Part shown: in pieces, positions 2,440 through 20,075 of the stretch | Layout: every line of letters begins with the position of its first letter | Numbering within the stretch: the first letter of the stretch is position 1 | Assembly (NCBI GenBank): GCA_021163155.1 | Contig: JAGGXI010000114.1 | Span: forward strand, 1 to 26,459 | Origin: Candidatus Aerophobota bacterium | GTDB lineage: Bacteria; Aerophobota; Aerophobia; Aerophobales; JAGGXI01 | Direction: 5' to 3' | Length of the DNA: 26,459 bases | Position numbers and translations under genes: made by a program | The notes under the pieces: model-generated | Database searches by the model: none | What the model saw: the letters and a program-made list of their open reading frames with translations, nothing else | What the model was told of the DNA's origin: nothing

Positions 2440-2815
2440 TTCATCCCTCTAATCCTTTAATCCTGCTTTTTTAATCCTGCTTTTTTTGTTTCTGTTTTTT
2501 CTTTCTTTTCCCTTTAATCCTCTAATCCTGCTTTTTTAATCCTGCTTTTTTTGTTTCTGTTTTTTCTTTCTTTTCCCTCTAATCCTCTAATCCTTTAATC
2601 CTCTAATCCTGCTTTTTTCTCTCACATCCTACCTTTTCGCAGGCTAAAGCCTGCGGCTACCAGTTTACATCTCACTGTTTTGTTTTTCCCTCTAATCCTC
2701 TAATCCTTTAATCCTCTAATCCTTTAATCCTGCTTTTTCCCTCTCACATCCTACCTTTTCGCAGGCTAAAGCCTGCGGCTACCAGTACCTTTTTCCCTTT
2801 AATCCTTTAATCCTG
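2440..2815. repeat. GGATTARA tandem repeats with two embedded family-A hairpins
   Basis: The whole gap between trxB and the CsgG-like gene is repeat. On the minus strand it reads as 8-bp units GGATTAAA/GGATTAGA with AAAAAGCAGGATT and poly-purine spacers. A roughly 65-bp unit is tandemly duplicated (starting at 2461 and 2526). Two family-A palindromes of the form GCAGGCTAAAGCCTGCGGCT sit at 2638-2661 and 2760-2783, each followed by the CAGTGAGATGTAAACTGG-type flank (reading the minus strand). The right end runs into the 3' end of the CsgG-like gene. No gene is seen. Confidence 0.85.
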
Positions 2816-4009: not shown

Positions 4010-4059
4010 AGTTTACTTCTTACTGTTTTTCTTGGTTTTTTCCCTTGTTTTTCTTTGTT

Positions 4060-4200
4060 TTTCTTTCTTTTCCCTCTAATCCTTTAATCCTTTAATCCTC
4101 TAATCCTGCTTTTTTAATCCTGCTTTTTTCTCTCACATCCTACCTTTTCGCAGGCTAAAGCCTGCGGCTACCAGTACCTTTTTCCCTTTAATCCTTCTTT
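4060..4200. repeat. GGATTARA tandem units plus one family-A hairpin
   Basis: This second array has the same design as 2440-2815: AATCCTTT/AATCCTCT octamers, the AATCCTGCTTTTTT unit twice, then a family-A palindrome at 4149-4172 and a final CCTTTAATCC. It ends just 3' of tRNA-Leu. Together with 3906-4009 it fills the gap between tRNA-Leu and the CsgG-like gene; nothing else is seen there. Confidence 0.8.
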
Positions 4201-11417: not shown

Positions 11418-11493
11418 GGGGGTATAGCTCAGTTGGGAGAGTGCGTCCTTGGCGTGGACGAGGTCGGGGGTTCGAATCCCCCTACCTCCACCA
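11418..11493 (+). tRNA. tRNA-Ala (GGC)
   Basis: A 76-nt tRNA with encoded CCA. The acceptor GGGGGTA pairs with TACCTCC and includes the alanine-specific G3:U70 wobble pair. The anticodon arm CGTCC-TTGGCGT-GGACG gives anticodon GGC. The T-arm is GGGGG-TTCGAAT-CCCCC. Position 37 is G rather than the more usual A. Its last 20 nt are repeated exactly at 11701-11720. Confidence 0.95.
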
Positions 11494-11775
11494 GATCCAG
11501 ATAAAGACAAAATAGTGAGACGTAAACTGGTAGCCGCAAGGCTCAGAGCCTGCGAAGAGGTAAGACGTGGGAAGTGAGAGATAGAAAAGCAAGGGGATTC
11601 GAAGCCGAGTTGAGCGCATCCTGTGGATGAAAAATGAGCAAAGCGAATGTCAGCGAGACCGGCCGGCTTCGGAGGAGGAGCGGAAGCGACAGGGGAGAAG
11701 GAATCCCCCTACCTCCACCAGATAAAGACAAAATAGTGAGACGTAAACTGGTAGCCGCAAGGCTCAGAGCCTGCG
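11474..11775 (+). repeat. tRNA-Ala 3'-end duplication flanking a structured insert
   Basis: Copy 1 (11474-11554) and copy 2 (11701-11775) both carry GAATCCCCCTACCTCCACCA, then the same flank (AAGACAAAATAGTGAGACGT, AAACTGG) and a family-A hairpin. Copy 1 differs only by an extra 6 bp, because CCAGAT is doubled at the tRNA end. The period is 227 bp. Between them (11555-11700), GGGGATTCGAAGCCG at 11593-11607 can pair with CGGCTTC (11664-11670) and GAATCCCC (11701-11708). A small hairpin CATCC-TGT-GGATG lies at 11617-11629. Its left arm is also the reverse complement of the tRNA T-loop side TTCGAATCCCC. A 62-codon minus-strand frame over this region is not a credible gene. Confidence 0.8.
11529..11554 (+). 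repeat. Family-A hairpin, single type
   Basis: GGTAGCCGCAAGGCTCAGAG, then CCTGCG; the inner stem is AGGCT/AGCCT. The same sequence is at 11750-11775. Confidence 0.8.
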
Positions 11776-19852: not shown

Positions 19853-20075
19853 AAAGGATTAAAGGATTAGAGGATTAAAGGGAAAAACAAAACAGTGAGA
19901 AGCAAACTGGTAGCCGCAGGCTTTAGCCTGCGAAAAGGTAAGAGGAAAAGGCAGGATTAGAGGATTAAAGGATTAGAGGATTAAAGGGAAAAACAAAACA
20001 GTGAGAAGCAAACTGGTAGCCGCGAGGCTCAGAGCCTGCGAAAAGGTAAGAGGGAAAAAGCAGGATTAAAGGGGA
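19853..20075. repeat. Tandem duplication of GGATTARA units plus family-A hairpins
   Basis: A unit of about 106 bp starts at 19864 and again at 19970: GGATTAGAGGATTAAAGGG, then AAAAACAAAACAGTGAGAAG, CAAACT, then a family-A hairpin (19909-19932 and 20015-20040), then CGAAAAGGTAAGAGG. The two copies differ mainly in the hairpin: GCAGGCTTTAGCCTGC in the first, GCGAGGCTCAGAGCCTGC in the second. The array fills the tRNA-Pro to trpS gap in the orientation opposite to those at 2440-2815 and 4060-4200. No gene or T-box-like motif is seen before trpS. Confidence 0.85.

Follow-up and report, generated by a model that had tools for sequence, protein, structure and literature searches.

Short structured elements behind bacterial tRNA and tmRNA genes that carry the 3' end of their own host

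The window, as the whole stretch of 26,459 nucleotides analysed here from a Candidatus Aerophobota bacterium is called, carries between two copies of the 3' end of a tRNA-Ala gene a short structured insert, of which dozens of further copies occur in Aerophobetes and Elusimicrobia and in a small number of additional lineages. The units lie behind tRNA and tmRNA genes, share a conserved core, join the repeated tRNA end at a junction fixed at tRNA nt 57, end in the 3' end of their own host gene and bear a left arm matched to that host; an empty site is also available. They are quite probably non-autonomous mobile elements whose insertion at the T-loop is staggered and templated by the target. No description of them was found in the open-licence literature searched.

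The insert behind tRNA-Ala and its relatives

The last 20 nt of the host tRNA-Ala (GAATCCCCCTACCTCCACCA, CCA included) recur exactly at a spacing of 227, as an earlier note on this DNA had described (Table 1). The 55 nt after the second copy, with a hairpin termed family-A, are also present behind the first, as the note had likewise stated, at a spacing of 221, because copy 1 carries the extra CCAGAT that had been recognised there as doubled. The left arm GGGGATTCGAA, described as complementary to the T-loop side of the tRNA, proved to be the reverse complement of nt 54-64 without a mismatch, and its pairing partner in copy 2 is GAATCCCC.

Table 1. Features of the window insert and other copies in the same genome
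Feature	Position	Strand	Basis
Host tRNA-Ala(GGC), intact, CCA encoded	11418-11493	+	ARAGORN and Rfam RF00005, 65 bits
Target duplication copy 1, tRNA nt 57-76 (GAATCCCCCTACCTCCACCA)	11474-11493	+	Exact repeat
Flank copy 1, doubled CCAGAT and family-A hairpin	11494-11554	+	58-nt exact repeat
Rest of the 5' spacer of the inserted unit, unconserved between genomes	11555-11592	+	Spacer comparison
Left arm GGGGATTCGAA, host nt 54-64 in inverted form; could pair with copy 1 or 2	11593-11603	+	
Conserved core: P2, P3 and variable hairpin P4	11604-11663	+	Covariation, 17 sequences
Core helix P2, GCCG-a-GTT with GAC-CGGC, tandem G.A, then GC/GC	11604-11611 with 11657-11663	+	
Core hairpin P3, CATCC/GGATG	11617-11629	+	
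Hairpin P5, GGAGC-GGAA-GCGAC, GNRA-type loop, tandem G.A	11677-11690	+	Alignment A1
Constant 3' end of the element (AGGGGAGAAG)	11691-11700	+	Pre-junction sequence across family
Target duplication copy 2, host tRNA nt 57-76; right junction fixed at nt 57	11701-11720	+	
Flank copy 2 with family-A hairpin; putative native downstream flank	11721-11775	+	Repeat; G007/G009 comparison
Truncated copy behind tRNA-Ala(CGC)	C86 of own genome		
Copy behind tRNA-Ser-type 3' end, apparent integrase att remnant	C50 of own genome		
Copy close to contig end	C26 of own genome		
45-nt fragment close to contig end	C113 of own genome		

The core is strongly supported by covariation. In the alignment of 17 sequences, 98.2% of the cells pair and 12 of the 20 pairs have changed on both sides, a covariation score reached by none of 500 shuffles. 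The helix GAAGCCG/CGGCTTC proposed earlier is unconserved in the family, the conserved helix being P2. The tandem G.A of P5 is replaced by Watson-Crick pairs in relatives (alignment A1), and the alternation of tandem G.A with Watson-Crick pairs, together with the GNRA-type loops, suggests an RNA. In the predicted RNA fold of tRNA plus element, the constant 3' end of the element and the next 7 nt can make a T-arm-like hairpin at the junction, and the second 3' end can close the acceptor stem; this fold is only a hint, its stability being unexceptional (z -1.0). Long variants (L107 on G001:C81, L103, L105, L106 and L099) contain within the core an extra module GTTRCTGCGCGATGAATAAAGAGCGCGTGGGTWGYAACGGGTGCGAGAAGGTGAGCACCC, twice in L107, which looks like a separate structured insertion.

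The genome of the window holds five copies, namely the window insert and four other copies or fragments, and a DNA search found the element in seven of the 17 genomes of the order, which make up the whole phylum sample. True relatives were recovered by a pattern scan of named genomes in Elusimicrobia, in one Ratteibacteria genome and in two unclassified genomes. Covariance model R1 added further copies in the pattern-scan genomes and detected the element in 15 of the 149 sampled genomes of the Elusimicrobia phylum, with up to eight copies per genome; most genomes are metagenome drafts. A pattern match on a viral contig (L052) was rejected, as it looks like coding sequence met by chance. Phage and plasmid collections searched with the window element gave no credible match, and the E. 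coli-type copies opened in the plasmid collection turned out to come from the tyrT region of the chromosome, in records that carry a plasmid label. Autonomous long versions were not found within up to 20 kb downstream of elements without a nearby right end. Rfam yielded only tRNA matches in the window, no credible match on nine element loci and no family to which the element belongs above the gathering score.

Fit of the elements to their host genes

A same-strand tRNA or tmRNA gene lies within 450 nt upstream of 63 of the 78 covariance-model hits, about 0.5% being expected, and the hits lacking one are mostly at contig ends or tRNA fragments; chance is excluded because copies of the insert sit behind tRNAs across many genomes. 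Right ends were compared against every host 3' end in the set. Among 62 testable copies, 49 agree with nt 57-73 of their own host at 16 or more of 17 positions, and the own host is strictly the best match in 52 (mean 15.8 of 17, as against 10.5 for other hosts); a good right end is absent in 13 copies, which are truncated or decayed. The hosts comprise 13 isotypes (Leu, Gly, Ser, Ala, Thr, Gln, Asp, Met, Tyr, Glu, Arg, Lys and Cys, with tRNA-Tyr found once) and tmRNA. Behind the tmRNA gene, element L195 (G052:C30:78779-78898) shows CCA after copy 2 and none after copy 1, a pattern also explained by a 17-nt duplication of a gene that originally encoded CCA. Origin of copy 2 from a mature tRNA was rejected, since genomes without encoded CCA have no CCA in copy 2.

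On the right, the junction always falls at nt 57, with GGGGAGAAG before it and GAATCC after it. The opposite end of the repeat is variable, lying in most cases at 17-20 nt and reaching 61 nt at the extreme. In L125 the duplication runs past the tRNA into locus-specific sequence that includes the tRNA's own terminator. Several of the long repeats could arise from tandem arrays instead of insertion.

An empty tRNA-Ala site, which the earlier note had proposed to look for, exists in G007, a sister species in the same genus as the element-bearing G009. Spacer, left arm and core are all missing from G007. The sequence downstream of its tRNA-Ala can be aligned with what follows copy 2 in G009 (score 52.5, the highest shuffled score being 18.5) but not with what follows copy 1 (score -5.0). 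Spacer, left arm and core were therefore inserted with a duplication of 20-23 bp, this filled/empty comparison resting on the one pair. Together with the position of 63 of the 78 hits behind host genes and the 49 own-host ends, the empty site strongly supports the suggestion, made from the window, of a non-autonomous tRNA-tracking element whose copies follow tRNA genes and end in the 3' end of their own host.

A simple local tandem duplication through the flanking hairpins, with no discrete insert, would account for the repeated flank or tandem units seen in the window, in L123, L126, L134, L189 and in others. As an explanation of the family it is scarcely credible, given that the core is homologous over phyla, that most loci duplicate 17-20 nt only and that neither spacer nor left arm nor core is present at the empty site. 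For the extra 55-nt flank of the window such a duplication is probable; the first flank copy would duplicate the native downstream flank, placed after copy 2 by the G007/G009 comparison. The 75-nt duplication of the window probably combines an insertion event with a later local duplication of the flank.

Integrases are known to use tRNA T-loops and to leave a duplicated 3' end (PMC1762012, PMC4383910), and copies L003 and L032 adjoin integrase-type att remnants. Site-specific integration in the T-loop by a tyrosine integrase, the repeats then being attL and attR, is nevertheless very unlikely. It is disfavoured because a move to another acceptor stem would swap the 3' half of the host and create a hybrid tRNA, and because a studied T-loop integrase requires 100% identity over a 26-bp core (PMC1762012). 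All testable host tRNAs are intact and of their own type, locus-specific sequence beyond the tRNA is duplicated (including terminators, as in L125), and element and target share no locus-independent attP core, own-host ends being found in every tRNA type. Att-site duplication, to which the insert had been likened, is thus not upheld as the mechanism, as the duplication can exceed the tRNA and hosts with different acceptor stems are all intact; the accompanying remark that the unit is too small holds, no integrase fitting in 110-200 bp.

In 53 of 60 elements, covering eight T-loop types, the left arm read as its reverse complement is identical to host nt 57-60. The observed mean is 3.87 of 4 and the best of 5000 permutations is 3.13, figures that are approximate since the elements are related; the contrast within a genome, for example G018 with AACT, AAAT, GACT and AATT hosts, is independent of this relatedness. 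The inverted homology starts exactly at nt 54 and fades past about nt 64-67, and at the tmRNA host, which has TGC instead of TTC at 54-56, the arm ends in GCA as against GAA elsewhere. Where the nearest core relative belongs to another T-loop type (n=34), the arm fits its own host in 30 cases, the host of the neighbour in none and neither in four. The left arm was therefore refitted at or soon after each insertion, and a role as an inherited target-selecting guide was rejected on the same counts. Behind one Glu host (L091), nt 61-66 of the arm are still of Gln type.

The geometry would also fit homing by an RNA-guided nuclease of the TnpB/omega-RNA kind. TTC (54-56) would then serve as the target-adjacent motif and nt 57-76, preceded by a scaffold, as a 20-nt guide, with the cut falling about 17-23 nt downstream: the right end is a 20-nt target sequence and the left junction lies where such nucleases cut. 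This is highly improbable, as the left arm would block the guide, the guide would direct cleavage of the very tRNA gene that hosts it, TGC stands in place of TTC at the tmRNA host, and TnpB (PF07282) is missing from 16 of 20 carriers, drafts that include some with up to eight copies.

The nearest core relative is found in the same genome in 47% of cases, where permutation gives 4%, but it occupies the same tRNA in 6%; copies therefore spread within genomes. These data bear on the alternative that the element is a regulatory or processing RNA inherited vertically as part of tRNA operons, a role proposed for the RtT RNA, its arms being kept complementary by selection on the RNA. The strong RNA-type structure, the G.U pairing allowed by six of the seven left-arm mismatches in nt 57-60 and the closure of the acceptor stem by the second 3' end in the predicted fold all accord with it. 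It is unlikely, however, in view of the sporadic presence of the element at orthologous tRNA-Ala loci, the nearest core relatives at different tRNAs within one genome and the empty site with its duplication. A function could still have been acquired after insertion. Pairing of an RNA with the tRNA, the other possibility raised in the earlier note, is compatible with the data.

Known systems and neighbouring repeats

Similarity in plan is closest to the enterobacterial RtT RNA, or tyrT repeats (Rfam RF00391; Bosl and Kersten 1991, cited in PMC4986893), described as a tRNA-operon by-product that may take part in the stringent response (PMC4986893, PMC2965389). In E. coli, Salmonella and Klebsiella it shares the succession of tRNA, spacer, complementary left arm, structured core and a 19-nt copy of the tRNA-Tyr end. 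Its left arm (GGGGAAGGAU) is complementary to the T-stem/acceptor side of the host tRNA, as in the new elements, and a comparable CUC-GA-GC...GC-GA-GAG stem is present along with a GGAGCGAUAGCGAC hairpin that turns Watson-Crick in other units. RtT occurs in 4687 of 5426 E. coli genomes. A copy also lies between tyrT and tyrV; in E. coli K-12 this spacer (L170 1064-1195, minus strand) matches the Rfam RtT model with 132.9 bits, and the record annotates one rttR unit only. In the examined records RtT follows tRNA-Tyr only, mostly as tandem units, whereas the new family covers 13 isotypes and tmRNA in other phyla, and the consensus sequences differ. The Rfam RtT model gave no match in the genome of the window (E<=10) or on nine element loci (E<=5), and the covariance model of the new family matched RtT weakly (10.2 bits, E 0.009). 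Membership in the Rfam RtT family was rejected, its model finding none of the elements; the two share a plan and are possibly related, but they are separate families.

The integrative elements and islands that target tRNA genes (Ms6, PMC1762012; Islander, PMC4383910) likewise have a T-loop junction, a duplicated 3' end and an intact tRNA. The new elements differ from them in having no integrase, a length of 110-200 bp, many tRNA types per genome, duplicated locus flank and host-fitted arms. With SINE/LINE elements they share a fixed junction (nt 57), a variable other end (17-61 nt) and a target-site duplication. These eukaryotic non-LTR elements have a conserved 3' end at a fixed nick, a variable 5' side and a target duplication of mostly about 17-20 bp; the new elements, in contrast, are bacterial, most carriers are without reverse transcriptase, the tRNA gene serves as target rather than as ancestor, and the left arm would be rebuilt from the target. 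REP/BIME repeats, which are linked with RAYT transposases, are similarly short structured repeats spread in trans, but they are shorter hairpins with a GTAG guide and are not known to be tied to tRNA genes or to produce a target duplication. Several attenuator-like BIME elements resemble rtT (PMC2965389).

The family-A hairpin (TAAAGACAAAATAGTGAGACG...GGTAGCCGCAAGGCTCAGAGCCTGCG) belongs to a dispersed repeat of its own, matched more than 60 times in the genome. It lies in the window at 2620-2687, 11494-11554, 11721-11775, 19883-19943 and 19989-20051, and the hairpins are frequently paired and sometimes behind tRNAs. Short tandem arrays of CCTCTAAT / AGGATTAA stand beside tRNA-Leu and tRNA-Pro (window 2444-2731, 4024-4129 and 19853-19987), and the same motif fills the spacers of element copies L003 and L004. 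Upstream of four copies in G001 (L092, L098, L103 and L104), a repeated pseudo-tRNA end GGTTCGAATTGGTTGCA..CGTCCGCCA was observed with a small helix-turn-helix-like reading frame; these ends are probably att remnants of another mobile element.

Proposed insertion reaction and its significance

In the proposed reaction, a non-autonomous element of about 110-200 bp, the transcript of which would be a structured RNA, would enter a tRNA or tmRNA gene opened by a staggered break. The opening of one strand, at a constant T-loop position, would separate nt 56 from nt 57; the other strand would be opened at or slightly past the mature tRNA 3' end, some 17-23 nt further downstream and occasionally more. 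Fill-in would leave the host tRNA whole and make a second copy of the host 3' end the right border of the element. The mobile form may tentatively be taken as an RNA, copied by target-primed synthesis from the nicked T-loop strand, because the conserved 3' end, the unconserved 5' end and the variable duplication resemble SINE/LINE insertions. Copying of the left arm from the target during insertion, and its correction just afterwards through a left-arm/right-arm hairpin, appear about equally probable.

The enzyme would presumably be supplied from elsewhere. Reverse transcriptase (PF00078) was detected among the tested carriers only in G000, G016, G019 and G024, and none was found in G001-G003, G009, G017, G018 and G020-G023, all of these being drafts. 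Single-strand transposition by Y1/RAYT-type transposases, as with REP repeats, draws on the presence of Y1_Tnp genes in 15 of 20 carriers and on one locus (L177 / L209; G099:C6, ~177.9-176.5 kb, minus strand) where an element without a recognisable tRNA directly precedes a gene for a 336-aa Y1 transposase. It is quite unlikely, as five draft carriers have no Y1 at E<=1e-5, including G022 with eight copies; Y1 insertions are not known to produce a target duplication. Reverse transcriptase, TnpB and Y1 were each rejected as a universal partner, being absent from some carriers, although such absences are soft in draft genomes.

The elements may represent a new class of mobile bacterial nucleic acid: structured RNAs that use the T-loop as their entry point into tRNA and tmRNA genes, the right arm being written as a direct and the left arm as an inverted copy of each new host, with RtT as a domesticated branch; this wider proposal is put forward as a possibility somewhat short of probable. 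If the arm is rebuilt from each target, this would be an unusual way of fitting an element to its host. The proposal also predicts an enzyme able to open tRNA genes at the step from nt 56 to nt 57. RtT at E. coli tyrT, a locus-specific curiosity, would become one case of a wide tRNA-tracking family with a testable origin. For genome annotation, such units are a source of spurious partial tRNAs and spurious att sites downstream of tRNA genes.
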